Position numbers and translations under genes: made by a program | In this document: positions 9,780 to 61,881 of the stretch, one piece after another | How the letters are laid out: each line of letters begins with the position of its first letter | Position numbering within the stretch: position 1 is the stretch's first letter | NCBI GenBank assembly: GCA_016946835.1 | Contig: JACVTC010000010.1 | Location: 2,088,001-2,152,000 of the forward strand | Direction: 5' to 3' | From: Neocallimastix lanati (nom. inval.) | Taxonomy: Eukaryota; Neocallimastigomycota; Neocallimastigomycetes; Neocallimastigales; Neocallimastigaceae | DNA length: 64,000 nucleotides | The notes under the pieces: model-generated | The model's database searches: none | Told to the model about the DNA's origin: nothing | Seen by the model: the letters and a program-made list of their open reading frames with translations, nothing else

Positions 9780-10615
9780 TAAATTTTAAAACGCAGTTCA
9801 GAAATCCAATAGTTGAACCAACAATCAATAATCTAGTATCAAAAAGGGTATTAGATTCAGACTATTATCCAATTTGGGCAGACGACTTGAACCTGCTATT
9901 GTGCACTTTTGGTTTAGAAAGCTATATCCATAGCGAAAACCTACAAATAATAACTGCAGATGACCCAAATTACAACAACAATTGTATAAAGGTCCAAGGT
10001 ACATCAGACCTTTACTACAAAGAAAATGTTAATAAAACAATGATTAAAAACGACAATAAAGCAAAATGGTTCATATGTCTCAATTTAGACGATGAAACCA
10101 AAAGAAAAATAATTTTTAATACCTTTACTGCGTATGAAATCTGGAAGCTACTCAAGGGAACTTTTCAGAAGGGAAAAGAAGAAAGAAAAGAAATTCTAAA
10201 AACTGAACTAGGAAAGCTAAGATATGACCTAGATAAGGATTTTGAAAATTTTCTCTCCGGAATGGAAAACCTATTCTTTCAACTGAAAGAACTGGGAACT
10301 GAGCCTTCTGATGAACAAAAATTTAACTACCTGTTTAAGGCACTACCACGGAACTTAACTCAAAAAGTGAATATAATGGTCTTCCTTGATAATTGGGAAG
10401 AATGTAAAAAACATCTAATTAAGGTAATTCCAAGGTATAAGTTCCTTACTAAAGATAAAACAAATCTTAAAGCTTTTAATACCACTACAATTGGAGTAAA
10501 AAGGAATTACAAAAACATTGGTAATAATTCTAATTCAAAAGGAAGAAACAAAAGGATTATCAAATGTTATAAATGTAACGGATTAGGACATATATCACGT
10601 GACTGTCCAAAGTGA
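9780..10615 (+). CDS. El-5 copia-type Gag with zinc knuckle
   Basis: The frame is open from about 9780 to the stop at 10615; no ATG is evident at its 5' end, and I read the similarity from LDSDYYPIWADDLNLLLCTFGL (about 9857), the usual start of copia gag. The middle has the helical UBN2-type gag fold motifs (AKWFICLNLDDETKRKI, EIWKLLKGTFQKG, LGKLRYDLDKDFENFLSGMENLFFQLKELG) and the C-terminus a CCHC knuckle, CYKCNGLGHISRDC. Gag packages element RNA. The stop codon is the TGA that also opens the downstream repeat, so no pol frame could follow. It is the only long open part of an otherwise old element. Confidence 0.75.
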
Positions 10616-10649
10616 TATGGGGGATGATATGTGCAATAATTTTTAATAG

Positions 10650-10960
10650 TGAGAAAAGTATGTGTGTTTTTTATAATAAACTTTATTTAATTTTTGTATT
10701 TAGTTAATACATAAATTTTATTAATGTAAAGAACTCATTTTTTAAGATAATAAAAATAATTATTTTTATAGTAAAAATTACATATTTAATCATGTGATAA
10801 TTCTATGAATTAATACACATAGATAAATGTTACACAACATAAAAATATAAGAATAAAATATTAATATAAGATAAAAATATAATATTGATAATAATATAAG
10901 AATATAAAAATATAATTTTAATAATATAAAAATATAAAATAAAATGTGATTATTTTAACA
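10650..10960 (-). repeat. El-6 3' LTR
   Basis: 311 bp, TGAGAAAA...TTTTAACA on the plus strand, matching 23618-23928 with about one difference. It is preceded (in element sense) by the polypurine tract at 10961-10969. Confidence 0.95.
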
Positions 10961-10969
10961 TTCCCCCCT
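10961..10969 (-). other. El-6 polypurine tract
   Basis: AGGGGGGAA in element sense immediately before the 3' LTR, the standard plus-strand primer position. Confidence 0.8.
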
Positions 10970-12888: not shown

Positions 12889-13855
12889 TGTAAAATATTT
12901 AATAATTTGAATACGTATTTAAATGTAATGTAATGTAAATTATTGTGGATAAAAATGTTTTCCAAATTTTTAATATAAATTTAAATGTATTCCAAATTAT
13001 TAATTTAAATAATTTTCTCAAAAATTTATGACTAAATTATTTGGAGAATTTACGTAACAATTACTCAGTTGAATCACGAAACTTCATAAATTAAAAAATA
13101 ATTAGTCATTAATTAGTTAAATTAAAATAATTAAAGGAATATTGCCTTTTCCGTTTGTTTACAAAAACTTGCCGTTTTGTTTACTTGTCTTTTAAATTAT
13201 AGAAATTCTAAAAATAAAAATAGCAAGTTGTGGTTTAGTAAATTGGTTTTCACAACTTGGCAAAATTTAAATTAAATATATGGATAGAATATATTTAATC
13301 ATATAATTAATGAATTAAACTCTAAATTTTTCTTCATAGAAAATTTTAGAAAAATTAGATAGTTTTAAATAGGATTTATATTAAAATAATTCATAACATT
13401 TTATGTAATTTATTAAATAATGTAATTGATAATATAAAATAATATGTTTATATAATTTATTAAAATTTATTTTGATTTAAAATTTTATTTTGAAAAAGTA
13501 TAAAAAGAGTTAATTTTTCAACTATTGAACGATAGTTGGAAAATCGTATAGTAATAGGAAAATCTAAATTTTATTATTAGTTTCGTAACTATTATTAGAA
13601 TAGTTACTTTCTTATAAAACAATTATATTATAGTTTGTAAAACCTTAACTGCTAGTGGGAACTCCGGAAAGGACCCTGCGTTACCCAGTTAAGTGGTTGT
13701 TGAAAATTAGTTAATAAATAAAATAAATAAATAAAAGAAATTAAAAAAGAAAATAATTAATTAAATAATAGAGGTTTAAGATATAGTGTTATTAGTGTAG
13801 TAAAGTTAGTTTAGAATAGCCACAAACCTAGACTTGATAAGTATTTTATTTTACA
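12889..13855 (+). repeat. El-7 5' LTR
   Basis: 967 bp, TGTAAAATATT...TATTTTACA. It carries a TATA box (13499-13507) and the probable RNA start near 13534. A GC-richer patch near 13650 (CTAGTGGGAACTCCGG) lies in the presumptive R/U5. About one difference from 18746-19712. Confidence 0.95.
13499..13544 (+). promoter_or_regulatory. El-7 TATA box and presumed transcript start
   Basis: TATAAAAAG at 13499 preceded by GAAAAAG. About 35 bp downstream AGTTGGAAAAT (13534-13544) equals the reverse complement of the first 11 nt after the LTR. In Tf1-like elements the transcript begins with exactly such a self-primer, so I place the start near 13534. The spot also lies in an imperfect inverted repeat (TTTTTCAACTAT/ATAGTTGGAAAA, 13513-13543). 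Confidence 0.65.
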
Positions 13856-13978: not shown

Positions 13979-14077
13979 GTTTAAAATTAGTAATAGTAAA
14001 TAAAGGTGGATTTAATAATTAGATATAGTATAGTATATAGTTTATTGTTTAGTAATAAAAATAGGTTTATAAATAGA

Positions 14078-17000
14078 ATGGAGTATTTGAGAATCAACAA
14101 CCAAGACCCAGGAGCTAGGAGAGACTTTGACGCAGTCTCTGAAGCCAGCTCCATGGAAGTAGAAAATGAGGCTGGTAATCACGTCAATACCAGGGCACGT
14201 CTCATTCCAAAACCTAAGGTATTTTCAGGAAAAAGGAACGAACTGTCAGCGTTTTTAGGCCAAATTTCAAGATATTTCAAATATAACTTAGAAGGTGAAG
14301 CAATTGAAGATGACGAATTCAAGATAGATGTAGTGAGCAGCTACTTAGATGGAACCGCTGCAGAATGGTATGCTGACTTGTGTAAAGAAGAAAGCCCCTT
14401 GCTCCAAAGTTACGATCTCTTTATAAATGCATTAAAAGAAAGATATAAAACCTGTGCCAGTACCGATGTAGCCAACAGTAGGATTACGAAGATAAAAAGC
14501 CACCATTATTGTTCTCTCGCCGAATACTGTGATCAGTTCGAAAAGGTAGCCAGAGACTCCTCCTTTAATGATGAAGCCAAGATTCACTTTTTTATTGATG
14601 GATTGCCAGCAAGAGCAAAAGAAAGAACAAGATTGATCTATCCCAGGATCAGGAAACTCAACGAACTAATTAATGTGGTATCTGCCAACGCTGAAGAAGA
14701 CCGTCGTGTTTTTGGAAATGACCCCATGGATGTAGACCAGAGAAGAATTAGACCTTTTAGCAGAAGTTTAGGAACAAGCCGCTACAGGACTAATTACCAA
14801 GATACCGAAAGAAATTATGGAATGCCGCCAGCAAATAAATTGTCAAGAATTAAGAAATGTTTTATATGCAACAGTACTAATCATTTGAAGTCTAACTGTC
14901 CTAAACAAAAGGAGAAAATTCGGAGAAGAGAAAAGGTATTACAGATAACTGTTAGTAAAAAGAGTTTATCTCACACCTACAATGTAGCTATCAAGTTCAG
15001 AGATGGATTAATCCTAAAGGCAATTTTAGATACCGGATCTGACATTAACTTAATTGATAGAAAAGTTGTTGACAGGTATGGTATTCCAATGCAACGTCTT
15101 CGTTATGAAAAGAATGTTTTAGGTATTAACGGAAATGGAATTATCCGCTATGAAACCATTCCTTTAACTATGGTTATGGGTCAGCATTCTGAAACTATTA
15201 ATTTTTACATTTATGATTTACCTGAAGGAATACCCATTATCCTTGGAAATCCATGGTTAAAGAAACACTGCCCAACAATTGAATTTGACCACGGAAATAT
15301 TAGATTCAGTTCTCAGTATTGTAAAAGAAACTGCTGTGCTACCGCCGAAGAAATTGCCAGAAGAGTTGAAGAAAAAAGAAGAAAAGAAGAAGAAGAACGC
15401 AGGAATAAAATCCAATTAGCAAAAGAAATTATTAATTATAAGGTTGAAAATAATAAAGATAATTGTATTAGATTAGATAATTATGATTTTAAAAGTAGTT
15501 TAGAGATTGAAAAAAATAAAGCATATATTCGTAAAGTATGTAGTAAAAAGGCTGTTATGAAAAAAGCCTTAGTTAAGAAAAATAAGAGTTTAAAAAGAAA
15601 AAATTTAAATAAAGATAAAATTGAAAATTATGTATTTTATTGTGTTTCAAAAAATGAAAGTAAAGATAAAGTTTTACGTGTTATTAGAGAAAAATGTGAA
15701 AATGTAAAAAGGAATACTAGTATTGATCGAGAAAAACAAGATAGAAATAAAATTAATATAAAAGATGAAGTTAAAGAAGAGATTCCAGAACAATATAAGG
15801 AATATAAAAGTGTATTTGATGAAAGAGAATGTGATAAATTACCTCCTCACCGGTTGTATGACTGTAAAATTAGATTAAAGGATGATGTTGACTTATTTTA
15901 TGGTCCTTTATATCCATTAACGGAGGAAGAACGTGAAGCTTTAAAAGAATATATCAAAGAAAATTTAGAAAAAGGCTTCATTAGACCTTCAACATCTCCT
16001 GCTGGTGCTCCAATTTTATTCGTTAGAAAAAAGGATGGAAGTTTAAGACTTTGTATCGATTATCGAAGACTTAATGAAAATACTATAAGGGACTCCTATC
16101 CACTCCATTTAATCACCGAGCTTTTTGACAGATTGAGAGAAGCTAAGTATTTTACTAAGTTAGATTTAAAATCAGCATATAATCTAGTAAGAATTCGTAA
16201 AGGAGATGAGTATAAAACCGCTTTCAGAACAAGATACGGTCATTATGAATACCGAGTAATGCCCTTTGGATTAAAGAATGCACCTGCTACTTTCCAACAC
16301 TTTATTAATGATGTATTAGGGGAATACTTAGATGAATTCGCTTTCGCTTATATTGATGATATACTTATATACTCAAACACCCTAGAAGAACATCGCGTGC
16401 ATGTGAAGAAGATTCTTAAACGTTTGCAAGAAAGTGGACTTTATGCAAAATTAAGTAAGTGTGAATTTGAAGTCCAGAAAACAACATTCTTGGGGCACGT
16501 AATATCCAATCAAGGAATTTCCATGGATCCGGATAAAGTTAAGTCTATCTTAGAATGGCCAATACCAACTACAGTCAAAGAAGTACAATCGTTTATAGGT
16601 TTATGCAACTACTATCGAAGATTCATCCCAAACTTTGCTAAAATTGCTAAGCCGTTACACAACTTAACAAGAAAAGATATTAAATATGAATGGACTGAAG
16701 AATGCTCCGTTGCATTCGAAACTTTGAAGAAACTTTTTACCATAGAACCTATTCTTGCCCATGCAGATCCAGAATTACCGTTTATAGTAGAGACAGATGC
16801 AAGTAATTTTGCAATTGGTGCCGTATTATCTCAAAGAAATAAGGATACAAATGAGTTACATCCAATCTGTTATTATTCTAGAGGTTTGTCCAAATCTGAA
16901 AGAAACTACCCTATTTATGACAAGGAACTTTTAGCTGTTAAGTGTGCATTACAAGAATGGAGACATTACCTTGAGGGTTCAAAACACCAGTTTACAATTT

Positions 17001-18712
17001 TCACAGATCACAAAAATCTTACTTTTCCTCGTAAGCCAGAACTTCTATCTCAACGACAAATTAGATGGAATTTATTTTTGTCACGATTCGATTATAAATT
17101 GCAATATAGACCAGGAAAAGAGGGTGGAAAACCAGATGCTTTTTCAAGAAGACCAGACTATGAAGATAAAGAAATTGAGGATGAAGAAGACTCAATCCCG
17201 TGTTTCGCTATCATGGACTTAGATAATAATTCATACCCTTCAATCCAAGGTCAACTAAAAGAGGAATTAATAAAGAATACAAAAGAGGATAAATTTATCC
17301 AGGAATTAATTAGCGTAAAGAAAGGAGTATCGACTACTAACAATAAATATAAAAGTAAAATGAAAGATTTCGAACTTGAGGAGGATGGATTACTTCTTTT
17401 TAAAGGACTTATCTTTGTTCCTAACAAGATGAAAGATATTATTATCGGTATCCACCATGATAATCCTGTGCAAGGCCACTTTGGAATTCTTAAAACTAAA
17501 GAAGTTATTAGTAGAAATTTTGTTTGGTTCAGAATGACGGATGATATCGTAAAGTACATTGCTTCTTGTAAGATTTGTTGTCAAGCTAAAGATGATCGTC
17601 ATAAACCATATGGATTACTTCAACCGCTCCCTACTCCAAAAAGACCATGGTCATATGTTTCAATGGATTTCATCACTGATTTACCTAAATCGAGAGACAA
17701 ATCAGTAATTATGGTTATAGTAGACAGATTAACTAAAATGGCTCATTTTATCCCATTTAGAAACCTTCCTACCGCTGTTATTGCTGCAGATGTTTTCTTT
17801 CGTAAAATCTTTCGCTTACACGGCCTTCCAGATGATATTGTTTCGGATAGGGGTTCTCAATTTACCTCGGAATTTTGGACACGATTATGCAGTCTATTAG
17901 ATATTCGTCAAAATTTGTCAACAGCACATCACCCTCAAACAGATGGTCAAACTGAACGAGTTAATGGTATATTAGAACAATTTTTAAGGTGCTATATTAA
18001 CAAAAGAAAAAATAACTGGATGGACATTCTTCCTTATGCTGAATTCGCATATAATAACACATTACAACAATCGACTAATCAGACACCATTCTTCTCAAAT
18101 TATGGTTTTAATCCAAAATTCAATCCAGTTATACCTGCTGATAGCAGAAGAACAAGTACCATTGACCATGTTGAACAAATAAGGAAAAACATGCAATTCC
18201 TCAAGAAAAATTTAGAAAAAGCTAAGGAAAGATATAAGAGATATGCAGATCACTTAAGAATTGTAGGACCAAAATTAAAAGTAGGTGATAAAGTTTGGTT
18301 AAAGCGTCCAGACTTACTTCCAAAAGGTCCTTCTAAATTGACTAACAGAAAACTTGGTCCTTTTAAAATTATTGAAAAAACAGGCCCTGTTTCTTATAAA
18401 TTAGAATTGCCTGATACTATTAAGTGTCATAATGTTTTCCATATTTCAAACCTAGAACCTTACAATGAAAGAGAATTTGATGAATCAAGTGCAAGTACTA
18501 ATACTCGAATTACTTCGATCGCTACTGATACTGAAGGAAAGGAACCTTTGAAGATTGTTGCCGCTAAAGTTGTTAACAATAAACCTCTTTACTTTATGTT
18601 ATGGAAAGGACTTCCAGCTACTGAATGCACTTGGTTGTCTGAAGAAGAAATCTCCGATCCTCAATTAGTTCAAGAGTTCAATAGAACTAATAGAGTTCCT
18701 TCGAGATTATAA
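14078..18712 (+). CDS. El-7 Gag-Pol polyprotein with C-terminal chromodomain
   Basis: The frame is open from 14006; I prefer the ATG at 14078 (MEYLRINNQDPGARRD) because the first 24 codons upstream are composition-like. Counting from 14006, the order is gag with capsid motifs (IPKPKVFSGKRNELSAFLGQ), CCHC knuckle CFICNSTNHLKSNC (about residue 285), retropepsin ILDTGSDINLI (about 342), a Lys-rich linker, RT with LDLKSAYNLVRI and YIDDILIYS (about 782), RNase H with VETDASNFAIGAVL, integrase HHCC (about 1150-1195) and DDE motifs (MDFITD, VSDRGSQFT, TDGQTERVNG), then a chromodomain (LYFMLWKGLPATECTW) at about 1530-1560. Single-frame Gag-Pol and chromodomain fit the Tf1/sushi chromoviruses. The chromodomain normally steers integration to marked chromatin. 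Confidence 0.96.
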   Translation: MEYLRINNQDPGARRDFDAVSEASSMEVENEAGNHVNTRARLIPKPKVFSGKRNELSAFLGQISRYFKYNLEGEAIEDDEFKIDVVSSYLDGTAAEWYADLCKEESPLLQSYDLFINALKERYKTCASTDVANSRITKIKSHHYCSLAEYCDQFEKVARDSSFNDEAKIHFFIDGLPARAKERTRLIYPRIRKLNELINVVSANAEEDRRVFGNDPMDVDQRRIRPFSRSLGTSRYRTNYQDTERNYGMPPANKLSRIKKCFICNSTNHLKSNCPKQKEKIRRREKVLQITVSKKSLSHTYNVAIKFRDGLILKAILDTGSDINLIDRKVVDRYGIPMQRLRYEKNVLGINGNGIIRYETIPLTMVMGQHSETINFYIYDLPEGIPIILGNPWLKKHCPTIEFDHGNIRFSSQYCKRNCCATAEEIARRVEEKRRKEEEERRNKIQLAKEIINYKVENNKDNCIRLDNYDFKSSLEIEKNKAYIRKVCSKKAVMKKALVKKNKSLKRKNLNKDKIENYVFYCVSKNESKDKVLRVIREKCENVKRNTSIDREKQDRNKINIKDEVKEEIPEQYKEYKSVFDERECDKLPPHRLYDCKIRLKDDVDLFYGPLYPLTEEEREALKEYIKENLEKGFIRPSTSPAGAPILFVRKKDGSLRLCIDYRRLNENTIRDSYPLHLITELFDRLREAKYFTKLDLKSAYNLVRIRKGDEYKTAFRTRYGHYEYRVMPFGLKNAPATFQHFINDVLGEYLDEFAFAYIDDILIYSNTLEEHRVHVKKILKRLQESGLYAKLSKCEFEVQKTTFLGHVISNQGISMDPDKVKSILEWPIPTTVKEVQSFIGLCNYYRRFIPNFAKIAKPLHNLTRKDIKYEWTEECSVAFETLKKLFTIEPILAHADPELPFIVETDASNFAIGAVLSQRNKDTNELHPICYYSRGLSKSERNYPIYDKELLAVKCALQEWRHYLEGSKHQFTIFTDHKNLTFPRKPELLSQRQIRWNLFLSRFDYKLQYRPGKEGGKPDAFSRRPDYEDKEIEDEEDSIPCFAIMDLDNNSYPSIQGQLKEELIKNTKEDKFIQELISVKKGVSTTNNKYKSKMKDFELEEDGLLLFKGLIFVPNKMKDIIIGIHHDNPVQGHFGILKTKEVISRNFVWFRMTDDIVKYIASCKICCQAKDDRHKPYGLLQPLPTPKRPWSYVSMDFITDLPKSRDKSVIMVIVDRLTKMAHFIPFRNLPTAVIAADVFFRKIFRLHGLPDDIVSDRGSQFTSEFWTRLCSLLDIRQNLSTAHHPQTDGQTERVNGILEQFLRCYINKRKNNWMDILPYAEFAYNNTLQQSTNQTPFFSNYGFNPKFNPVIPADSRRTSTIDHVEQIRKNMQFLKKNLEKAKERYKRYADHLRIVGPKLKVGDKVWLKRPDLLPKGPSKLTNRKLGPFKIIEKTGPVSYKLELPDTIKCHNVFHISNLEPYNEREFDESSASTNTRITSIATDTEGKEPLKIVAAKVVNNKPLYFMLWKGLPATECTWLSEEEISDPQLVQEFNRTNRVPSRL

Positions 18713-18745: not shown

Positions 18746-19712
18746 TGTAAAATATTTAATAATTTGAATACGTATTTAAATGTAATGTAATGTAAATTAT
18801 TGTGGATAAAAATGTTTTCCAAATTTTTAATATAAATTTAAATGTATTCCAAATTATTAATTTAAATAATTTTCTCAAAAATTTATGACTAAATTATTTG
18901 GAGAATTTACGTAACAATTACTCAGTTGAATCACGAAACTTCATAAATTAAAAAATAATTAGTCATTAATTAGTTAAATTAAAATAATTAAAGGAATATT
19001 GCCTTTTCCGTTTGTTTACAAAAACTTGCCGTTTTGTTTACTTGTCTTTTAAATTATAGAAATTCTAAAAATAAAAATAGCAAGTTGTGGTTTAGTAAAT
19101 TGGTTTTCACAACTTGGCAAAATTTAAATTAAATATATGGATAGAATATATTTAATCATATAATTAATGAATTAAACTCTAAATTTTTCTTCATAGAAAA
19201 TTTTAGAAAAATTAGATAGTTTTAAATAGGATTTATATTAAAATAATTCATAACATTTTATGTAATTTATTAAATAATGTAATTGATAATATAAAATAAT
19301 ATGTTTATATAATTTATTAAAATTTATTTTGATTTAAAATTTTATTTTGAAAAAGTATAAAAAGAGTTAATTTTTCAACTATTGAACGATAGTTGGAAAA
19401 TCGTATAGTAATAGGAAAATCTAAATTTTATTATTAGTTTCGTAACTATTATTAGAATAGTTACTTTCTTATAAAACAATTATATTATAGTTTGTAAAAC
19501 CTTAACTGCTAGTGGGAACTCCGGAAAGGACCCTGCGTTACCCAGTTAAGTGGTTGTTGAAAATTAGTTAATAAATAAAATAAATAAATAAAAGAAATTA
19601 AAAAAGAAAATAATTAATTAAATAATAGAGGTTTAAGATATAGTGTTATTAGTGTAGTAAAGTTAGTTTAGAATAGCCACAAACCTAGACTTGATAAGTA
19701 CTTTATTTTACA
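18746..19712 (+). repeat. El-7 3' LTR
   Basis: 967 bp, about one base different from the 5' LTR; followed by the target duplicate CTTTA and then El-6 sequence. Confidence 0.95.
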
Positions 19713-22485
19713 CTTTAGAAGGCGTTTTTTCTCGCGGGGGTTCCCCCAAATGGCTCGCTGGTCGAGCTGTGAGGCGACTGCACAACGATACCGACGACAC
19801 CTGATCTGATCCGCGGGTTGTCGTCTCACTCTCTTCTTTTTTTGAAAATTTTGAAGTATTAATTGTGGCTTGATTTTTAATTTTCCTATTTTGATTAATG
19901 TTTTCAGGCATATGTAAATTATTTGAATTTGTGGCTTGAACTTTAATAATTATCTTTTTATTATTTTTATTTGACTGTTTTGCATTAGAAATATTCTTTG
20001 AATTATTTTGATAATTAATTGAAATATTAGAATTATTTATTGATTTTAAATTATTATTTGTATTGGAATTATTATTTGAGGAGTTATTATCATTATTTGA
20101 AAATATATTTGATTTTATATTTTTGTAAATTTCTGATAAAAGTTCTTCATTGTTATATTTATTTTTAATAAAATCTTTTAAATTTTTTGTTGCTTGTTTT
20201 AATTGTTTATTAACAATTTTATAATCATTAAATTTATTATTTTTATAATCACTAATAATACCATTATGCTTTAAATTATATTGCTTAATATCTGATTTCA
20301 TTTTATTGACAATATTTGAGTCACTGTTAAATATATATTTTATTTTATTTAAATTATTCGTTAAATTGTGATTCGAGATATTTGATTTAATTGTTGAATT
20401 ATTTGAATTCTTATATGAAGTATTGTTTGAGTTACTATTTGAAATAATATTTGAAGTATTATTTGATTTATTATTTGAGATATTATTTGAATTATTACTT
20501 GAGATATTGTTTGAATTATTAGTAGAAATATTTGATTCATAATTGTCGTTGTAAATTTTATTATTATTTAATGAGTTATTATTATCATTGTTTTGAGAAT
20601 ACTCATGAGAATCTTCACTTGAATAGTTACTGTCGTTGAAATTTGAAGTATTATTATTATTGAAATTTTGTTGAATTAAGAGTACATTTTGATTGTTGTT
20701 ACTTTGGTGATGAACGTTTGAATTATTTTCATTTGATTCATATTCTAAATCTTCGTCTTCATCTTCATCTTCTTCTGTGTTAAGTTCTTCAGGTGTGTAA
20801 TTTTCTTTATAATTTGTTTTGTTATTAAAATTAAAGTTTCCAGGGATATCCTCTTCGAATACGGCATCACGAACAATATGAGTTTTGCAATCATTAGTTC
20901 CAAAAATAACATATCCTGGAGAATGTTCATCATATCCTAAGAAAATTCCAGGTAATGTGTTATTATCAAATTTTGAGTTTTTAAGGGAAGCATCTACATA
21001 GTAGTATGCTCTGCATCCAAAAACACGAAGATTGTCAATATTCACTTCTTTATGGTAGTATAATTCATCAGGAATTTTAAATTTTATTGCTGTTCTTGGA
21101 GTCATATTATATATTTTCACTGCGGTTTTGACAGCGTCTTCCCAGAAATGGTAGCTTAACTTTGCTTGGTTTAATAATGCTTTTGTAGCATTTATTATTG
21201 TTCCATTTAATCTTTCAGCTCTTCCATTGCTTTGTGGGTTTCTTGGAACGGTAAGATTTCTTTGTATACCTGCTTTGTTGCAGATATCTATGAATTTTCT
21301 TGATGTATATTCTTTTCCATTGTCACTTTGTATTTTTGTTATTGTTAAATTTGATTCATTTGTCACCATTCGTATGAAATTTTCAAAAATTTCTGGAACT
21401 TCGGATTTTCTTTTTAGTAGATATATCCAACTTTTTCTTGTGAAGTCATCAAGGAAAGTTAAAATATATTTGAAATTATTCCTTGATTCTTTAAGAGGTC
21501 CAATAATGTCCGAGTGGATTAGTTCCAATGGCCTTGTACTTCTTGCATTTAAAGTTTTTCTGAAAGGTTCTTTTTTCAGCTTTGATATTTTGCAGCCAAT
21601 ACATAGAGTTTTGTTAATTGTGTGTCCATTTAGGAATTTAATAAGATTATTGTTATAGAAATGGCACAGTCTTTTATGCCATATACTTAAGGAGTATTGG
21701 TCTAGATTGCTACTTTGTAAACTGTATATTGTTTTATAGTTTCCTTGTTTATTATTAACGTAAATATTACAAATTTTGATTGAGTTTTCTTTTTCTATGC
21801 ATAAAAGTTGACCATTCAATTTCGCTAATCTAAAGTATGCATTGTTATCAATAATGATAACATCAGCTAAGTATTGTCTTTTAAGATCGTTGAATGATAT
21901 TAATGTTTTATTTTCATTAATATCTTCTGAATATAATACATTTTTTATTATGAAGTAAATATTATTGATGTATCCCGTAAGATCTCCAATTTTTGAAACT
22001 TGTACTATTTCTTTTTCCTTTGTTGGTAGTATCATATTAGTATGATAATCTCTAACATTACATAGATTTTTTAATGATCCCGTGATATTTGAAGATGCTC
22101 CAGAATCTATGGATATTACATATCCATTATTATAATCTGGATGACATTTATGATTGTTGATGAATTCATATATAGTTTTTCTATTTAGGTCGTTTGTAAT
22201 TATGTTTGGAATCATAGGTGGAAGTGGACTATCATGAGGTTTTACTAATTTATTTTTACCAATAAGGTTTAATTCTAGATTATTATTATTTTCTATGTTA
22301 TTGATTATTATATCACGTGAATCCATAATTTTATTTGATATATATGATTTATGTTCATCATGAATTGATTCATTTGAAATATTATAGTTGATTGGATTTG
22401 TTTTAGGTTTGTTATAGTCCCCTAAATAATTGATTATTAAATCATTTGATTCATAAGAGTTATTCATTGGTGGTTCAGGAGACAT
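19713..22485 (-). CDS. El-6 pol 5' segment: copia protease and integrase
   Basis: The first Met available is at 22485. The domains are protease with IDSGASSNITGS (about residue 126), a GAG-pre-integrase zinc region (WHKRLCHF...CIGCK, about 268-297), integrase core with HSDIIGPL, QSDNGKEYTS and NGRAERLNG (about 326-424), and the GIFLGYDE segment typical of copia. A roughly 300-residue Asn-rich stretch (NNSN runs) follows. The last 40 residues are encoded by an unusually GC-rich patch. It would process Gag and integrate the DNA copy; El-7 has split it from the RT half. Confidence 0.92.
19718..19838 (-). other. GC-rich patch inside El-6 pol
   Basis: About 120 bp with well over 50% G+C (contains CTCGCGGGGGTTCCCCC and GATCCGCGGGTTG) in surroundings of about 20-25%. 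It is in frame with El-6 pol and begins next to the El-7 insertion. Not a recognised domain; see findings. Confidence 0.8.
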
Positions 22486-22595
22486 GTCATATGGATTTTC
22501 TCCATCTAGTCAGATATTCTTTTCATGGGTTTCTTGAGATTCATCATAGTCACTGAGGGCATCAATGATTTCTAGGTTGTTGATTGTATTTTTGG

Positions 22596-23546
22596 CTAGG
22601 TTAACTTTCTTGCTATTTCTTTAATTTTATTATTAGGATTCCTTGCATTAAAGTAGCAATTTCTTGTGAAATGGTCATGTTTGTCACAGATTGAACAGTA
22701 CTTCTCATTATTTCTTTTGGTCTTGTTCCTGTTAATTTTGCTATTTTTCTGGTTTCTTCTTCTCCGATTATTATTGTTATAGTTATTATTATAGTTATTA
22801 TTATAATTATTATTATTGTTATTATAATTATTGTGATTATTATTCCTAGAATTATTTTGGGAATGATTATGATTGGCATTTTTTATAAAAGAAACTTCTT
22901 CCACTGGCTTTGGGTCTTCCGCATTTAAAGTTCTTTTGGCTATGGTTCTGATTTCGTTTGCAATCTCTTGAAGATTGTCTTTACAATTGAATTTGACATA
23001 GTTTTTATATTCCCCTGGGAGTCCCTTCAAGAGTAATTTGAATTTTTCATCTTCGTCTATTGTTTTTCCTAATTCTTTGAGTAGATTACAAAGATGTTCG
23101 AATTCTGTAGTAAATTTGATTACTTCTTTGTCCGTTTTGGCTCTTAGATTTTTTAAACGGTCGTATAAATCTGGAACTTTGTTGATATTTATTATATTAT
23201 ATTCGCTTTCCAGATATTTATACATTTCGTAAGCCGATTTTAATCGAAGGCCTATCAACGTGGCTTTGGTTTCTTTGGAAACCGAGCATAGAATTTGTTG
23301 GCGAGCTCTACCGTCCTTTTCTTTAATTAGAGAAATTGAATTTTCAATATTCTTCTTATCTTCTTTTTTAGATTTGAGTTTATCATATAACTCATTTAAT
23401 TCTTCGTTGGCGTCGAATTGGATGTATTTGTCTTTGTGATTTATTTCGAGATTTGTTCTCAATTCGTACGCCCAAATGTCAAAGTTCTCTTCATTTAATA
23501 TCTCTCTTGGAGTTGAAGATGAATCTAAATTATTAGAAGTATTCAT
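22596..23546 (-). CDS. El-6 Gag (copia type)
   Basis: 316 codons starting MNTSNNLDSSSTPREILNEENFDIWAYELRTNLE. The W..EL opening, the YMKYLESEYN-like middle and LLKGLPGEYKNYVKF are typical of UBN2-type copia gag. An Asn-rich hinge precedes a basic stretch and a CCHC knuckle CSICDKHDHFTRNC near the C-terminus. The ATG at 23546 lies about 70 nt after the PBS, a sensible leader length. Gag assembles the particle and binds RNA. It lies in a different frame from the pol segment that follows. Confidence 0.92.
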   Translation of the reverse strand: MNTSNNLDSSSTPREILNEENFDIWAYELRTNLEINHKDKYIQFDANEELNELYDKLKSKKEDKKNIENSISLIKEKDGRARQQILCSVSKETKATLIGLRLKSAYEMYKYLESEYNIININKVPDLYDRLKNLRAKTDKEVIKFTTEFEHLCNLLKELGKTIDEDEKFKLLLKGLPGEYKNYVKFNCKDNLQEIANEIRTIAKRTLNAEDPKPVEEVSFIKNANHNHSQNNSRNNNHNNYNNNNNNYNNNYNNNYNNNNRRRRNQKNSKINRNKTKRNNEKYCSICDKHDHFTRNCYFNARNPNNKIKEIARKLT

Positions 23547-23603
23547 ATTTATAAGAAAGGTGGTTTTAAATAACGGATATGTTTTTTATAAATAAGAGCT
23601 AAT

Positions 23604-28177: not shown

Positions 28178-28210
28178 GGGAGTTGTCCTTCTCCCATTAT
28201 TTAGTTTAAA
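28141..28210 (-). promoter_or_regulatory. El-8 gag/pol frameshift signal
   Basis: In element sense: TTTAAAC (28210-28204), 8-nt spacer with the gag stop (28203-28196), stem GGGAG/CTCCC (28195-28191 with 28182-28178) and loop AAGGACAA. I see no convincing downstream partner for the loop in this copy. The geometry is the same as in El-1, El-9, El-10 and El-11. Confidence 0.72.
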
Positions 28211-40643: not shown

Positions 40644-42358
40644 CTCCCTTTGAAAGTAGCGGGAGCATTATTTAAACCGAAAGGCATAACAACAAAATTA
40701 TAGTTTCCAAAATTTGTTGTGAAAGAAGTTTTTTCAATATCTCTAGGATTCATTGGGATTTGGTGATAACCCGAATATAAGTCAAGGGCTGAAAATATTT
40801 TAGCACCTCTAATTGAATAGACAAGTTCATCGATGAAAGGAAGTGCATATGAATCTTTAATAGTGATTTCATTGAGCCTTCTGTAATCTATACATAGTCT
40901 CCATTTCCCATTTTTCTTTCTGACTAATAAATCAAGAAATGACCAAGGGGAATGCGAGGGAATAATTAAGCCTTTATTAAGTAAGGATATAATTTCTTCT
41001 TTTAGAATATCAGAATGCTCTTTTGATAATTTATAAGGTTTTAGCTTAATAGGTTTTTCAGTAGTAGTAATTATTGAATGTGGTTCAAGGTTAGCAGTTG
41101 TTAGCTGACTTAGTAATGTTGCCATACAGTTTTTGTATTGATTAATAAGACTTTCAAATTTTGATTTAACTTTATCTGGAACAGAATTGAGAATTTCGTT
41201 TAAAGTAGAGTTAAATTCACGAATTTCTTCATCTTTTTTAGATACATAAATAGCATTCATTAAGGGAATATTATTCGTATTATTTGAGTTAATTATCTGG
41301 ATTATCTTTTTAAGACCTTTTCTTGTTTTCTGATATATGAAATCATCATCTGGATCAATAAGTAATCTATATTTCTTTTGAATACTTCTTCCAAAAATAA
41401 TATCAAAGTATGGATTATCTTGATTTATAATATAAAATTTTTCATAAATGTTGCAAGAATCATTAATGTTAATTTTCAATGGAACATAGTATTTAGTAGG
41501 TACTGTAGATCCATTTGCTAAAGTAATATTTTGTTCAATTATATCTTCTTCAATTTTCACATCATTAAATTTATTTAAACATCCTTTTGTTATAAAATTT
41601 ACATTTGCTTCTTTATCGTAAAGAATTTTTAAAAATACTTCTTTCGTTTTTCCAATGAAGATTGGAATAGGAATATTATAAAGAGAGCATAATACATTAT
41701 CTATCTTTGGCTTACAACTTTGTCCTAATTCCTTCCTAAGAGTAGGACTAATAGAAAGTAATTGTGCAAGACTAATTTTCGGAAACAAGTTGTTGGCTTC
41801 CTTAATTATACTAAATTTATTACCTGGTTCTAACATTTGTATATCTGTCATACTTCTTTTTCTGGTTTGTTTAGTTTGGCTGAGAGATTGACTATGAGTT
41901 AGAACATCCTTGGTATTGTTTTCATTATTTATTTTACTACGTTCATCAATTATGTTAATTACATTATTCTCATTATTTCTATTATTACTTTCATTATTAT
42001 TTCCATTATTGTTTTCTGAATTATTCATTTCAGAATCTTTTGTATTTTCCTTTGTATTATTTGGTTCATCAATAATAATTTCATCATTATTATTTAATTC
42101 ATGGTCATTTAGTTTTTCATTATTAAGTTCTTCTTGTATTCCTGATTGCTTTCTTTTGTTGTTTAACTTTCTTAATATTTGGTTGATTGAGAATGGATGG
42201 TTTAACGATACTTTTATTATTTGGAGAGATTTTATTCTTATCCAAAGTACTTGTAGGTACTTTCTTTTTCTGGGGCTACATTAATTTGAGGGATTTGATT
42301 ATTTTCGTTATTAAGGTAATTTATTGATTGATTTGATGATGCAATTTTAGTTATTTTT
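40640..42358 (-). pseudogene. El-9 linker, protease-like region and RT N-terminal part
   Basis: An Asn-rich linker (NNSENNNGNNNESNN) is followed by a SQLLS.SPTLRKELGQ stretch shared with El-1, El-10 and El-11 (ISVAQLLDISPKVKAEL), so this pre-protease segment is a family trait. A protease-like fold follows, then LEPHSIITTTEKPIKLKPYKLSKEH and the RT start (KWRLCIDYRRLNEI, SALDLYSGYHQIPM, VMPFGLNNAPATF). The coding sense is in more than one frame here; it is part of a broken element. Confidence 0.85.
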
Positions 42359-42390
42359 GGAGATTGCTTACTCCCATAATTTAATTTAAA
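42341..42390 (-). promoter_or_regulatory. El-9 gag/pol frameshift signal with pseudoknot
   Basis: In element sense: TTTAAAT (42390-42384), 8-nt spacer with the gag stop (42383-42376), stem GGAG/CTCC (42374-42371 with 42362-42359), loop TAAGCAAT. The loop GCAAT can pair with ATTGC at 42345-42341, making an H-type pseudoknot. Confidence 0.75.
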
Positions 42391-51188: not shown

Positions 51189-52091
51189 ATGTCCAAGGAA
51201 ACAACTTTGAGCTTTAAAGAATTGAAAAAAGAATTGAGAGATATTGTGAAACTTAGCAAGGACAATTTAGATATTAAGTCCTGGGCTACTGAATTAAAAC
51301 TTTGGATCAAGATACAAGGTATCACAGATCCAGAAACAATATTTAATGCTTGTTTACTTACCAGCTCTGGTGAAGTACAACGCGTTATTGAAGATTTGCG
51401 AGAAGATAGTGATGATGAAAGTGATGATTCATCAGATGAAGAAGAAGATGATGATGAAGAAGAAAATGTTGATGATATTAAATTTCCTTCCCTTGAAAAA
51501 ATTATTTCAAGTCTTGAAAATTTTTACGGTATTAAAGAAGACCAAAATTTACTTCTTAAAGAACTTCGTGCAATGCGAATTAAAAGAAACGAAAAGATTA
51601 AAGACTTTAATGTAAGATATAGAACTTTGTACACTAAACTTGATAAAAAGAGAAGAAAGCGCATTGGTGTACTAGATTATATTGATTCTATTCAAAATAA
51701 TTATGAAGCCTGGAAGAAATTATCCCTTAAAGATGATATAAGTATGGATAAAGCTTTCAAAATTGCCGAGAAAGTAGATAGACTTTCTGTAAGGAACAAT
51801 AATACCTATAATATTAATAATTCCCAACATAATCAAAATAATCAAAACAGTACTACTTCAAGACTTTATCCTAAAAGAAGAAACGAAAATTTCCAAACAA
51901 GTCAAATAAATAATAAACCGAAACCTCAAGATATTATAGAAGAATCAACCCAGAAAATGAGAAATTTATCTGTTAAAACTTGCTTCTTCTGTAAGGAAGA
52001 AGGTCATTACTCATACTATTGCCCTCAATTAAATAAGATTATGGAAAAAAATAAAAAAGAAATATATTCCAAAAAGTCTTTAAACTTCTAA
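51189..52091 (+). CDS. El-10 Gag with zinc knuckle
   Basis: 300 codons, MSKETTLSFKELKKELRDIVKLSKDNLDIKSWATELKLW. The start is the first ATG after the leader array and matches the El-1 gag start. A capsid-like N-terminal region is followed by an acidic stretch (SDDESDDSSDEEEDDDEEE). A helical part contains LLKELRAMRIKRNEKIKDFNVRYRTLYTKLDKKRRKR and KAFKIAEKVDRL, then come an Asn/Gln-rich hinge and the CCHC knuckle CFFCKEEGHYSYYC, ending in a KKSLNF tail on the slippery site. It forms the particle and binds RNA. Homologous gags: El-1, El-8, El-9 and El-11. Confidence 0.93.
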   Translation: MSKETTLSFKELKKELRDIVKLSKDNLDIKSWATELKLWIKIQGITDPETIFNACLLTSSGEVQRVIEDLREDSDDESDDSSDEEEDDDEEENVDDIKFPSLEKIISSLENFYGIKEDQNLLLKELRAMRIKRNEKIKDFNVRYRTLYTKLDKKRRKRIGVLDYIDSIQNNYEAWKKLSLKDDISMDKAFKIAEKVDRLSVRNNNTYNINNSQHNQNNQNSTTSRLYPKRRNENFQTSQINNKPKPQDIIEESTQKMRNLSVKTCFFCKEEGHYSYYCPQLNKIMEKNKKEIYSKKSLNF

Positions 52092-52131
52092 ATGGGAGCA
52101 GAAGCACTCCCAATGACAAAACAATAGCTTC
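52079..52131 (+). promoter_or_regulatory. El-10 gag/pol -1 frameshift signal with pseudoknot
   Basis: TTTAAAC (52079-52085), 8-nt spacer with the gag stop (52086-52093), stem GGGAG (52094-52098)/CTCCC (52107-52111), loop CAGAAGCA. The loop GAAGC (52101-52105) pairs with GCTTC (52127-52131). The downstream reading that continues in the -1 frame is open from the stem onwards, as this mechanism requires. Confidence 0.82.
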
Positions 52132-52718
52132 ATTAAATAATTTACAAAATAATACTTTTACTAAGAATACTCCAATTGATAATAATTCCTTTAATGAAGA
52201 ATCTGAAGAATCTGATTTTAGTGACACAACTGAAAGTGAGGATGATATCATTATAAATGCTATAAAAAGAAAAATGAATGATAATAACGGCGAAAAAGAA
52301 GAAAATAATTCCAAGAAAGTACATAAAAGTTTAAAAGATAATCCACGTCCTTTTGCAACTCCTGCTTTAAGAAAGAAGAAAGAAAATGAGCTACATAATA
52401 AACCAAATAAAGTTTATAAAAATCAAATACTTCCTTCAATTTTAACTCAACCAAATATTAACAAAGAAAAACAAAAAGAAAAGGAATTAAGAAATATGAC
52501 AAGAGTAAGAGAAAGTAAAGAAGAAAACAACAATTATTCATCAAAAGGAAAGGAAAAAGTTGAATCTGAAGATATACTTGTAATCGATAATGAAATAGAA
52601 GATCTAGAAATGAATAAAGATAATCAACAAAATAAAACTAATACTTTAAAAATTAATTTCAACAAAAACTAAAGAAACTAATAATGAAAATACTCAGTTA
52701 GTAAAAAGGAATATCAAA
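52112..52718 (+). CDS. El-10 gag-pol linker region
   Basis: A Lys/Asn/Glu/Ser-rich, disordered-looking stretch (EESEESDFSDTTESEDD, then KKVHKSLKDNPRPFATPALRKKK). The SLKDNP.P..TPA motif recurs in El-1 (SLKDNPTPIRTPA) and El-11 (TLKDNPLPITNTPA), so it is a conserved spacer between gag and protease. No enzyme domain. Its frame relation to the flanking genes is not resolved into one protein here. Confidence 0.6.
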
Positions 52719-55700
52719 ATGATGAATAATAAAGAACCTTACAATATTATGGATGATTTAAATAATCTTAAATCCAGTATTACGATAGGTCAACTCTTGA
52801 ATGCATGTCCGAAAATTCGTTCACAATTAACTCAAGGTTTAAAGTTAGAAAAATCTAAAATAATTGGAACTGTAGACAATGTAATAGCACGAACTTTATT
52901 AGTGAATAACTATGATCATAGCTACATAAGTAAAAGTAATGAAGTAACCGAAGAAGACTTAGCAATGGTTGATGCAAGTGTTGACGGAGTACTAGGAAAA
53001 CTTTTAATTGATTCTTGTAGTAACCTAAGCATCGTTACTAAGCAGTATTTTGATAAATTACCTGGTGAATATGAAACAGTTGGAAAAAGTCGTGGAAGAA
53101 TCCAACTAGCAACACAAGATGAAGAATACTCGGAAGGAATTATTGTTCGATTACCAGTAAAAATTAATAATTATGAATTTAATGCGGACTTTAGAATTAT
53201 TGAGAAAGAAGACTCTTTTTATGATATGTTACTAAACTTTAAAACTCAAATCGATCATTGTTTATTTATTCATCCAAACTTAAACAGTCTATGTAAACTT
53301 TTGTCAGAAAGTGAATATGAAGAAATAGCTAAAATAAATAATCAATATTATGATGAAGAAAGTATAATTTGCACTATTAGAAAAGTTAAAGAAACGAATA
53401 ATGAAAAGGAAATTATAAAGGAATTAACTCTAATGGAATTTATTGAGAGTGATGAATTTTTAAGTACCTTAAATAAAGATTATAAAGAACAAATTATTAA
53501 AATTCTCAAAGAAATGATTGACATAGTTGCCACTTCAACAGAAGAACTAACTCCTTCTAAACTTTCACCACATAAGATCCGTTTAAAAGCTAATGCAAAG
53601 CCAGTAAAATTAAGAAGTTATAGGTTAACTAAATTAAAATCAGATATCTTAAAAGAAGAACTTACAAAGCTTATTAAGAAAGGATTGATAGAACCATCCT
53701 GTTCAGAATGGTCATCTCCAGTAGTACTTATTCTAAAACACAATGGAAAGTGGCGCTTGTGCATTGACTACCGAAAAGTCAATGATATGACAGAAAAAGA
53801 TTCTTATTCAGTTCCATATATAGATGAAATTTTTGATAGTCTCGGAGGAGCTAAAATATTTACAACTCTTGATTTATTTTCTGGTTTTCACCAAATTTTA
53901 ATGGATGAAGAAAGCGTTGAAGTAACCACTTTCACTACTAAGTTTGGAAATTATCAATTTAAGGTTATGCCTTTTGGACTTACTGGAGCTCCCTCAACCT
54001 TCCAAAGAGAAATGAATAAAATTTTATTCCCTTTTATTGGTGAATTTGTTTACGTATTTATTGATGATGTTTTGATCTATTCAAAAAGTATCGAAGAACA
54101 TTTAATTCATATTAAACAAGTATTAGAAGTATTTAGAGAAAACAAGTTAAAAATTAATATTGAAAAGTGCCATTTTCTTCAAACTGAAGTTGATGTATTA
54201 GGTCACAAACTTACTACTAAAGGATTAAGTCCCATGGAAAACAAAATAACAGCTATTAAGAAGTGGGAAGCCCCTTCATCACTTCATGAATTAAGATCAT
54301 TTCTAGGAGCAGTAGGATATTATCGTGACTTTATTCCTAAATATGCTCAAATTACCTCACCTTTATGTAAATTATTGAAAAAGAATACTAAATATGAATG
54401 GAATAAAGAACAACAAGAAAGCTTTGAACTCCTAAAAGAAAAATTAATCAATTCACCTATTCTAAAATTTTCGTTATTTGACAAACCTTTTATCATTAGA
54501 ACTGATGCTTCGTATAATGGAATTGGTGGAGTTCTTTTACAAAAAGAAGAAGAAACCGGTAAGGAGCATCCAATACACTTTATAAGTAGAAGTTTGAAGA
54601 AAGCTGAAAAGAATTATGGTATCACAGATTTGGAAGGAACAGCTTTATTCTATTGTATGACTAAATTTAAATATTATATTGAAGGAAATCCATTACCTAC
54701 AACTATATACATAGATCATAAACCATTAGTTGGTTTATTTAAGAATAAAGAACCTTTGAATGAAAGGCAAACAAGATGGTGTCTAACCGCTAGTATGCTT
54801 GGAATTAATATAAAATATGAATCAGGAAAAAAGAATGTGTTAGTTGATGCTCTTTCAAGAATGAAAAGTAAGGAAGAGAGAAAGATATTATTAACAAAAA
54901 TTACTAATGGAAATAATGAAGAATTATTATCTAAAGTTATAAAAGAATTTATTAATGAAAAGTTTACTGTTATTGATGGTGAAGATTACTTTATCGACAA
55001 TGGAAACTATAGAAAATTAATAACGGATGAAAATGAAAAATTTAAATTAATTTTAGAAGCTCATAATATTGGCCACGAAGGATATTACAAAACATATCAA
55101 AGACTTAAGAAAAACTTTTATTGGAATCATATGATTAAAGATATCAAAAGAATTGTTAGTAATTGTGAAAAATGCCAGTTAAATCGTCCTCAACCATATC
55201 TAGAACCAACCGAAAACCATCCAACTAAAGTAGAGGGTTCCTTTGTTCATTTAGAATTAGATATTATAGGACCGTTACCAAAAACAAGAAATAATAATCA
55301 ATATATTATAGTAACTGTTGATTACTTTACCAAATGGGTTGAAGCCGAACCCACTGAAAACATAACTTCCTCTGATATAATTAAATTTTTAATAAACGTT
55401 TTTGCAAGACATGGTGTGCCTCAAGTTATTACTACTGATAATGGAGTCCAATTAACTTCTGATATGACTAAAATCTTTCTTGATCTTTATGATGTATATG
55501 TTAAATTTGTAGCTACTTACCACCCTGAATCAAATGGTCTTACTGAAAATCGAAACAAAGAAATTGGAAAATTACTTCGTTTATTAGGAAGGAAAAATCA
55601 AGATTGGGATGAAATTTTACCTTCTGCTTTATGGGCACTTCGAACTACCAAAAATACAGCTACTGGACATTCTAGTTTTGAATTAGTATATGGAAGAGAA

Positions 55701-56087
55701 GACCAACAGCCTTATGATATAGCCATAAGAACAATTGAAAATGCAGGTAAATCATATGATGAAATTTTAATGGAAAAATTTGTTCGTCATTATCAATGGA
55801 CTAGAGAAGCATGCGAAAATGTGAAGAATGCTAACAAGTATTGGGCAACAAGACGAGAAGAACAAATAAGTATGAAAAAAGGAAAAGAATTAAAGGCTGG
55901 TGATCTTGTTCTTGTTAGAAACTTTAGCCGCACTAAGCTAGAACCATATTACAATGGACCATTTAAAATTTTAAAAATTCAATTCAACACGGCAACCCTA
56001 ATCGATCAGAAGACTGGAAAGCAACTCGATAGGAATGTTCACTTTAAAAATTTAGTAAAGTTTAACTCCGCTTACAGAGAAGCTTGA
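52719..56087 (+). CDS. El-10 Pol: protease, RT, RNase H, integrase
   Basis: 1122 codons. A pre-protease ITIGQLLNACPKIRSQL segment is followed by a protease-like domain with LIDSCSNLSIV (about residue 98) and by RT (KLSPHKIRLKANAKPVKLRSYRLTK; LCIDYRKVND; LDLFSGFHQIL; VFIDDVLIYS about 447). RNase H has FIIRTDASYNGIGGVLL (about 591) and YIDHKPLVGLF. The integrase zinc region is HNIGHEGYYKT...CEKCQLNRP (about 780-815). The DDE core is LDIIGPLPKTRNN, TTDNGVQLTSD (about 905) and HPESNGLTENRNKE (about 940). The C-terminus has LEPYYNGPFKIL and GKQLDRNVHFKNL. There is no chromodomain. This is a complete gypsy enzyme set in one frame; the first Met may not be the true N-terminus, because synthesis probably enters by frameshifting. 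Confidence 0.95.
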   Translation: MMNNKEPYNIMDDLNNLKSSITIGQLLNACPKIRSQLTQGLKLEKSKIIGTVDNVIARTLLVNNYDHSYISKSNEVTEEDLAMVDASVDGVLGKLLIDSCSNLSIVTKQYFDKLPGEYETVGKSRGRIQLATQDEEYSEGIIVRLPVKINNYEFNADFRIIEKEDSFYDMLLNFKTQIDHCLFIHPNLNSLCKLLSESEYEEIAKINNQYYDEESIICTIRKVKETNNEKEIIKELTLMEFIESDEFLSTLNKDYKEQIIKILKEMIDIVATSTEELTPSKLSPHKIRLKANAKPVKLRSYRLTKLKSDILKEELTKLIKKGLIEPSCSEWSSPVVLILKHNGKWRLCIDYRKVNDMTEKDSYSVPYIDEIFDSLGGAKIFTTLDLFSGFHQILMDEESVEVTTFTTKFGNYQFKVMPFGLTGAPSTFQREMNKILFPFIGEFVYVFIDDVLIYSKSIEEHLIHIKQVLEVFRENKLKINIEKCHFLQTEVDVLGHKLTTKGLSPMENKITAIKKWEAPSSLHELRSFLGAVGYYRDFIPKYAQITSPLCKLLKKNTKYEWNKEQQESFELLKEKLINSPILKFSLFDKPFIIRTDASYNGIGGVLLQKEEETGKEHPIHFISRSLKKAEKNYGITDLEGTALFYCMTKFKYYIEGNPLPTTIYIDHKPLVGLFKNKEPLNERQTRWCLTASMLGINIKYESGKKNVLVDALSRMKSKEERKILLTKITNGNNEELLSKVIKEFINEKFTVIDGEDYFIDNGNYRKLITDENEKFKLILEAHNIGHEGYYKTYQRLKKNFYWNHMIKDIKRIVSNCEKCQLNRPQPYLEPTENHPTKVEGSFVHLELDIIGPLPKTRNNNQYIIVTVDYFTKWVEAEPTENITSSDIIKFLINVFARHGVPQVITTDNGVQLTSDMTKIFLDLYDVYVKFVATYHPESNGLTENRNKEIGKLLRLLGRKNQDWDEILPSALWALRTTKNTATGHSSFELVYGREDQQPYDIAIRTIENAGKSYDEILMEKFVRHYQWTREACENVKNANKYWATRREEQISMKKGKELKAGDLVLVRNFSRTKLEPYYNGPFKILKIQFNTATLIDQKTGKQLDRNVHFKNLVKFNSAYREA

Positions 56088-61017: not shown

Positions 61018-61840
61018 ATGGATTATAATATTATAAGTGTTTTTCCACGCCTAAAATCAAAAGAAAAGGAAACGGTAAATAAATGGTATGACGAATTTGA
61101 CAATGTAATTAAAATGGAAAGAATTACAGATGTCGAAACCATCTATCGACTTGTCTACCTAGTAACTTAAGGAGAAGTTAGATCCATAATTCAAGAGCTC
61201 AATAACTCCTTAGAAGGATATCCAACTTTACTTCAGATGAAGAAATCCTTATTGACCGAAGGAACCTACAAAAACCGATATATATGATAAAGTGAAGAAT
61301 CTCTCTATAAAAATTGATGAAGAACTCGAAGATTTCAACCGAAAATATTTAGAATTATACCAGAAAGTAAGTGACGACCTGAAGTCCGGAATAAAAGTAA
61401 AAGATTACCTAAAATCAATTAAAACCAGGAAGGAAGCTTGTCATGCAGTCCTATACGACGAGTGCGAAACAATAGAAGAGGCCATCAAGTCTGCTTCCAA
61501 AGTCCAAAAGCTTCTAGAATTCGAAAAGGAAATGAACTCTGAAGAAGTAAGTAGCTCAAAGGAAATAGTTCACTTAGGTAACAAGAAGTTTAAGGTATTC
61601 TCTCCCATTCACTCATTCCCAGAAGGCGGTAAGGTACTTCGGTATATGAAGGGAAAGAATACTGTATCTAATGAAGACGAGAAGAAGAGAATACCAGTGA
61701 TGGCAAGTTCTAAACTCTACTGCTACAGTTGCAAAGAAGAGGGACATAAATTATACCAGTGCCCCTATTCAGACGAGGAATTAATTCAAATTCTCACTAA
61801 AAGAATAAAGAAAGAAGATGGACATGTACAAAAAAACTGA
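61018..61840 (+). pseudogene. El-11 gag with zinc knuckle
   Basis: Starts MDYNIISVFPRLKSKEKETVNKWYDEFDNVIKMERITD after an A-rich leader. The body includes LSIKIDEELEDFNRKYLELYQKVSDDLKSGIKVKDYLKSI, the gag region homologous to El-8 and El-10, and a CCHC knuckle CYSCKEEGHKLYQC near the end. It ends exactly on an AAAAAAC slippery heptamer. The N-terminal part is interrupted, hence the fossil label. Confidence 0.85.
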
Positions 61841-61881
61841 AAAAGGAGAGAACGTTAGCTCTCGGTAATCAAACTAACGTT
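61831..61881 (+). promoter_or_regulatory. El-11 gag/pol -1 frameshift signal with pseudoknot
   Basis: AAAAAAC (61831-61837), 8-nt spacer with the gag stop (61838-61845), stem GAGAG (61846-61850)/CTCTC (61859-61863), loop AACGTTAG. The whole loop is complementary to CTAACGTT (61874-61881). The stem differs from GGGAG/CTCCC elsewhere by a compensatory pair change. Confidence 0.82.

Follow-up and report, generated by a model that had tools for sequence, protein, structure and literature searches.

The window, the whole stretch of 64,000 nucleotides analysed here (22% GC), contains five gypsy elements, El-1, El-8, El-9, El-10 and El-11, that share a junction module at the end of gag, with El-10 serving as the reference. 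The gag open reading frame of El-10 occupies positions 51189–52091 of the plus strand, comprising 300 codons counted from the ATG and ending with a TAA stop at 52089–52091, and in the 199-Mb genome searched it had at least 131 scored matches, with identities of 97–100% among the matches listed. The slippery heptamer T TTA AAC lies in the gag frame at 52079–52085 (+), where the gag codons read TCT TTA AAC TTC TAA, placing the stop one codon past the heptamer. It is followed by an 8-nt spacer that contains the gag stop (52086–52093, +), the 5′ arm of a first stem (stem 1; GGGAG, 52094–52098, +), an 8-nt loop (CAGAAGCA, 52099–52106, +) and the 3′ arm of stem 1 (CTCCC, 52107–52111, +). GAAGC within the loop (52101–52105) and GCTTC farther downstream (52127–52131, +) constitute the 5′ and 3′ arms, respectively, of a predicted second stem (stem 2).

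The start of El-10 pol is located in the -1 frame at 52055–52672 (+), with 197 codons open from the heptamer, and the remaining pol, encoding RT, RNase H and integrase, is located at 52650–56087 (+) in a different frame, indicating that this copy of El-10 is broken. The two frames overlap at 52650–52672, and many sister copies carry a single frame there. Among instances of the El-10 loop type, the -1 frame was open to the end of the retrieved DNA in 33 of 43, some loci being counted repeatedly. The Pfam domains of El-10 pol are ordered RVT_1, RNase H, H2C2 and rve, which is the Ty3/gypsy order that characterizes Metaviridae, and the domain search gave no chromodomain match in this pol. Among the best 120 of 1574 proteins similar to El-10 pol, the closest with a named source were labelled Orpsp1_1 (43–67% identity), a label that we take to stand for Orpinomyces, which belongs to the Neocallimastigomycota; the genome is therefore likely that of an anaerobic gut fungus.

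All five window junctions carry an in-frame X XXY YYZ heptamer, N8 with the gag stop inside it, a 5-bp stem, of which El-9 has lost one pair, and an 8-nt loop. The El-11 module (61831–61881, +) consists of AAAAAAC, N8, stem 1 GAGAG/CTCTC (61846–61850 and 61859–61863), the loop AACGTTAG (61851–61858, +) and an 8-bp stem 2 with the downstream arm CTAACGTT (61874–61881, +). The other three modules lie on the minus strand. El-9 (42341–42390) has TTTAAAT (42390–42384), the loop TAAGCAAT and the stem-2 arm ATTGC (42345–42341), and its stem 1, GGGAG/CTCCA, has four of five pairs; its relatives L109 and L110 have CTCCC. El-1 (3596–3648) has TTTAAAC (3648–3642), GGGAG/CTCCC, the loop AGGAAGAA and the stem-2 arm CTTC (3599–3596). 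El-8 (28178–28210) has TTTAAAC, GGGAG/CTCCC and the loop AAGGACAA; instead of a clear stem 2, it has just a GG within the loop and a CC at 28167–28166. The geometry of heptamer, 8 nt, stem and 8-nt loop that an earlier note on this DNA had described at the five junctions was thus borne out, with all parts at the places it gave. The stem, put there at 4–5 bp, is present in all five elements and is one of 5 bp, with the single broken pair of El-9. The claim that the gag stop lies inside the spacer holds for all five window elements, though not for two of the 37 families defined below, where the stop is at +37.

Scanning both window strands with one rule (heptamer, N8, stem and N8 loop, the stem having at least four of five Watson–Crick pairs and at least five G/C) returned five sites, which are the five elements, and no other site. 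Within the window, the module is thus absent from a contrasting gypsy element with a chromodomain at 14000–18712, which encodes an SH3 domain resembling that of Tf2-1 and carries gag-pol as a single ORF of 1570 aa, and from the copia-type gag/pol pieces (Retrotran_gag_2, RVT_2 and rve) at 9752–12980 and 19708–23585. In Rfam, the window gave no match at the gathering score, and 52050–52200 gave no match at E up to 1. The gags of the window elements are 21–55% identical over BLASTP stretches of at least 47 residues, El-1 being represented by a 202-residue piece. All five window copies are damaged, with the -1 frame or the stem interrupted. Compared with the 197 codons of El-10, the -1 frame extends from the heptamer for 68, 29 and 11 codons in El-8, El-11 and El-1, respectively, and in El-9, which has lost the stem 1 pair, the -1 frame is also interrupted in the inspected junction stretch.

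In the genome, TTTAAAC-N8-GGGAG-N8-CTCCC occurs at 897 exact sites, compared with none for the reversed pattern. When the last base of the heptamer was relaxed to A, C or T (TTTAAAH), 1129 sites were found, again compared with none in reverse. The evidence for fixed spacing is the position of the heptamer at GGGAG-N8-CTCCC hairpins, which number 1165 genome-wide (2 for the reversed pattern); the heptamer therefore lies exactly 8 nt upstream of 1129 of 1165 hairpins. Freeing the loop length to 3–14 nt gave 1132 sites, only three more, so that the loop is 8 nt long in 1129 of 1132. As the copies of the module share descent, these genome counts do not represent independent events; chance is excluded as the source of the module. 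A pattern with stems other than GGGAG (387 sites versus 102 reversed) was not used as a module count, because it mixes modules with other sequences. Some of its matches in the genome G000 (for example C42:70163-70195) have the form ..AAATAAAG..ATGGAAGTGTATTCTCTTCC, in which no genuine X XXY YYZ heptamer is present, and perhaps belong to a separate repeat. The exact pattern was also found in 25 stretches of viral_contigs, on which no claim rests.

Gag ends were also collected by gag homology. In 60 hand-picked gag-end regions (40 and 20 from two gag searches, favouring varied scores and identities, with matches down to 26% identity), the module, with its heptamer, 8-nt spacer, stem of 5 bp and loop of 8 nt, was present in 58; the two exceptions were L072, with one stem mismatch, and L113, without a junction. 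The heptamer was in the frame of the gag match, with no earlier stop, in 52 of the 60 regions, and the stop of the heptamer's frame was inside the spacer in 55. Together with 20 regions found by pattern and the earlier loci, the gag-end regions yielded 80 distinct junctions, which were grouped into 37 families by 80% single linkage over 96 nt. Entry into this set required that all 5 bp of the stem be paired and that its 5′ arm consist of purines, together with one of four heptamers and an 8-nt loop, so that stem-1 pairing and heptamer identity within it are there by selection, and the window copy of El-9 lies outside it. Five of 62 distinct matches were dropped, four of them chance heptamer matches and one (L072) in a shifted register. 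The group with AAGG loops was sampled only through queries other than the El-8 gag and through patterns. The gag stop is locked to the module in 35 of the 37 families. In the 29 T-type families, the codon before TTA encodes Ser, His, Pro, Arg, Asn, Tyr or Phe; that this codon ends in T follows from how the set was selected, and evidence for the heptamer free of such selection comes from the gag-end regions, 58 of 60.

The main part of the module absent from the earlier note is the second stem. Bases of the 8-nt loop can pair with an arm 9–15 nt past stem 1, predicting the geometry of an H-type pseudoknot. Stem 2 takes the forms GAAGC(A)/(T)GCTTC, GCAAT/ATTGC (up to 7 bp), GTTAG/CTAAC (8 bp in El-11) and GAACGTT/AACGTTC, as well as TGTACT/AGTACA, TCAAT/ATTGA, GGCAA/TTGCC and AGTG/CACT. 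Over the 37 families, the longest in-register Watson–Crick run averaged 4.11 bp, compared with 2.86 bp (SD 0.15) when loops and arms were swapped among families; none of 20,000 swaps reached the average of the unswapped families. For 33 stem-loop types tested in this way, the averages were 4.55 versus 3.36 bp (0 of 20,000). Stem 2 has at least 4 bp in 22 families and at least 5 bp in 20, compared for the latter with a mean of 3.56 families (maximum 10) after swapping and 0.63 (maximum 3, 500 rounds) after shuffling. In alignment A1, made from a close family (five rows, four of them distinct; mean column identity 89%), both partners were replaced in two stem-2 pairs, from A-T to T-A and from G-C to A-T, compared with no such case in six slid registers. 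In both double changes it is L041, itself with one broken stem-2 pair, that differs from the three remaining rows, and the result was attained in 24 of 500 shuffles; with four distinct rows only, this test of changes on both sides is weak when taken alone. Alignment A2, from the GCAAT group, was excluded because its row L001 was miscoordinated. In three of the five window elements, the module ends given in the earlier note, 52131, 61881 and 42341, are the last base of stem 2, though that stem was not mentioned there.

Stem 2 is shorter than 4 bp in 15 of the 37 families, namely 11 of the 12 AAGG-loop families, including that of El-8, and L129, L133, L134 and L148. In the AAGG-loop group, CC occurs at +10/+11 in 11 of 12 families, compared with 1 of the 25 others, suggesting that the GG of the loop and this CC perhaps form two pairs, a pattern that may stem from a single inherited event; L143, also in this group, has a 5-bp run that may be a chance match. 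These 15 families, together with the presence of stem 1 and the 8-nt loop in all 37 (a consequence of the entry rule), would suit a heptamer with a simple stem-loop that drives -1 frameshifting alone, the downstream complementarity forming no stem. However, the matching of loop and arm lies far above the swapped and shuffled controls, and both arms change together, which makes a simple stem-loop unlikely. Loop–arm pairing with covariation, as in H-type pseudoknots, is supported over the 37 families taken together, with the AAGG-loop group standing apart. Stem 1 occurs as GGGAG/CTCCC, GAGAG/CTCTC and GGAAG/CTTCC, and once as GGAGG/CTTCC with a G-T pair. Across the 37 families its sequence is nearly fixed, and that of stem 2 changes freely. 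Covariation of stem 1 itself is thin because this stem hardly varies and because a paired stem was required for entry into the set.

Reading frames across the junction were compared in 67 instances, each with more than 600 nt downstream and some loci counted more than once. The -1 frame was open to the end of the retrieved DNA (503–1138 codons) in 47 of them, which represent nine loop types. The gag frame closes 2–3 codons past the X base in 66 of the 67 instances, and the +1 frame is closed at once, also in 66, since TTTAAA contains TAA in that frame; a +1 arrangement of the Ty3 type was thus not found in these instances. Furthermore, in 23 of the 37 families a stop closes the -1 frame no more than three codons before the heptamer, and in two of these right at it, so that in these 23 families a shift farther upstream would meet a stop and the switch must fall on the heptamer or a few codons from it. 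The junctions have the features by which -1 signals are recognized, namely a 0-frame heptamer where gag ends, an overlapping pol in the -1 frame and a structure within 5–9 nt, the spacer here being 8 nt.

Pol might instead be expressed through reinitiation or internal initiation, served by a structure near the gag stop, and an ATG does follow the El-10 gag stop directly, with another 4 codons past the X base in the -1 frame of the TAAGTGCT type (two of the 47 open instances). However, the ATG in El-10 belongs to the gag frame and opens a short frame only, the first -1 ATG lies 43–152 codons downstream in the remaining 45 of the 47 open instances, and an in-frame heptamer at a fixed 8 nt from the stem would stay unexplained, so that we consider this route very unlikely. 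The palindrome AACGTT, which is present in the stem-2 arm of El-11 and in the TGAACGTT type, would be in keeping with a pseudoknot used chiefly for another role, such as RNA packaging or dimerisation, but the structure keeps its place relative to the heptamer and, for 35 of the 37 families, relative to the gag stop, which makes such a chief role highly improbable. Mere descent combined with the coding constraint of overlapping frames is an extremely improbable source of the likeness among modules: the families are homologous and -1 peptides such as NQT recur, but the spacer, stem and loop lengths are equal among window elements whose gags are only 21–55% identical, and stem 2 occurs in at least eight forms with both arms matched, whereas coding predicts no matched swaps.

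The in-frame heptamer, the fixed geometry, the -1 position of pol and the covarying stem 2 can be read directly from the DNA. Judged on these features, the module with its compact H-type pseudoknot is very probably the signal by which a large group of LTR elements of the gypsy order achieves -1 programmed ribosomal frameshifting from gag into pol. We envisage that most ribosomes would end gag right after the heptamer or one codon later, giving Gag. Some ribosomes would meet, 8 nt past the heptamer, a pseudoknot with a stem 1 of 5 bp, a stem 2 of 4–8 bp where it is clear and a crossing loop of 9–15 nt. They would pause with tRNAs on TTA AAC (or AAA AAC) and slip to TTT AAA (or AAA AAA), a tandem -1 slippage of the Leu and Asn tRNAs, or of the Lys and Asn tRNAs in the AAAAAAC type. 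After the slip, the -1 pol frame would be read, giving Gag-Pol. The pausing and slippage, along with an efficiency and a Gag to Gag-Pol ratio, are what we infer from known systems. The proposal that these elements keep a retrovirus-like -1 signal across families is supported at the level of sequence by the 37 families and the covarying second stem, and because the latter makes the module a pseudoknot, the signal is stronger than had been claimed.

In the data given by PMC3835772, with column meanings as explained in its text, the betaretroviral gag-pro pseudoknots of MMTV, MPMV, SRV-1 and JSRV have a spacer of 7 nt, a stem 1 of 5–7 bp, a stem 2 of 6–7 bp, a first loop of 1–2 nt and a crossing loop of 7–14 nt, with the stems stacked or 1 nt apart. 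The module resembles them in its X XXY YYZ heptamer (AAAAAAC in MMTV) and compact pseudoknot layout, but differs in its 8-nt spacer, its 5-bp stem 1, its crossing loop of 9–15 nt, its mostly TTTAAAC heptamers and its location at the gag-pol junction of gypsy elements; the likeness is one of layout. Two mammalian genes that go back to Ty3/gypsy elements, PEG10 and Ma3, are likewise described as using a -1 shift with a classical heptamer and a pseudoknot (PMC5009743; PMC2800197). PEG10, however, has GGGAAAC and a 5-nt spacer, and both are domesticated single genes, whereas the module is found in many families.

The contrast implied in the earlier note, with yeasts using +1 shifts, is weaker. Ty3 of Saccharomyces, like the elements studied here, is of the gypsy order and has gag and pol in different frames, but shifts +1 at GCG_AGU_U, as given in the review PMC5009743, whereas pol follows the module in the -1 frame. 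The same review describes the split between +1 and -1 in fungi as less skewed than in animals, and a passage of PMC10085805 describes Tf1/sushi-group elements outside fission yeasts as predominantly -1, naming grasshopper. Gypsy elements of Verticillium, too, are reported with pol at -1 (PMC3441728). Grasshopper and the Verticillium elements share with El-10 the gypsy type and a -1 pol, but the passages on the Tf1/sushi group in PMC10085805 and PMC3441728 describe no conserved pseudoknot, and El-10 pol gave no chromodomain match. Tca2 of Candida albicans is also a fungal LTR element with a potential pseudoknot past the gag stop (PMC2194720). Unlike the present elements, its gag and pol are separated by UGA, according to the same source, and it is listed as copia type (PMC3441728). 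The Tca2 junction alone is reported not to have directed stop bypass in S. cerevisiae (PMC2194720), a case in which a predicted pseudoknot failed and thus was not proof of function. In the limited literature searched, we found neither the module pseudoknot nor a signal of this sort from gut fungi described.

Since -1 frameshifting in fungal gypsy elements has been reported already, as a passage of PMC10085805 indicates, the kind of signal is known; what is unusual in the module is a fixed geometry over many families combined with many forms of the second stem. The layout of the signal in this gypsy group, probably a fungal one, resembles that of the compact retroviral type. One genome holds dozens of natural variants (33 stem-loop types) with equal spacer, stem-1 and loop lengths and different second stems, providing comparative material on which pseudoknot properties set -1 frameshifting. 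As a tentative reading, which we hold possible rather than probable, a single ancestral recoding pseudoknot may have kept its spacer of 8 nt, stem of 5 bp and loop of 8 nt across the gypsy radiation in this lineage, with stem 2 diversifying into at least eight forms and being cut to a GG-CC contact in the AAGG group (12 of 37 families). If so, the variants would form a natural series in which the ribosome reads geometry and stability rather than the sequence of stem 2, and would include a working class that is hairpin-like or has two pairs.

The module may also explain why automatic annotation splits gag from pol in such genomes. Two loci of the El-10 family, L174 and L175 (G000:C754 and C201), have gag and pol in one open frame of 1663 aa, so that no shift would be needed, and retain the heptamer and hairpin. 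In the El-9 family, L176 (G000:C117) has a 1225-aa frame in which gag continues without the hairpin, which may represent an internal deletion.
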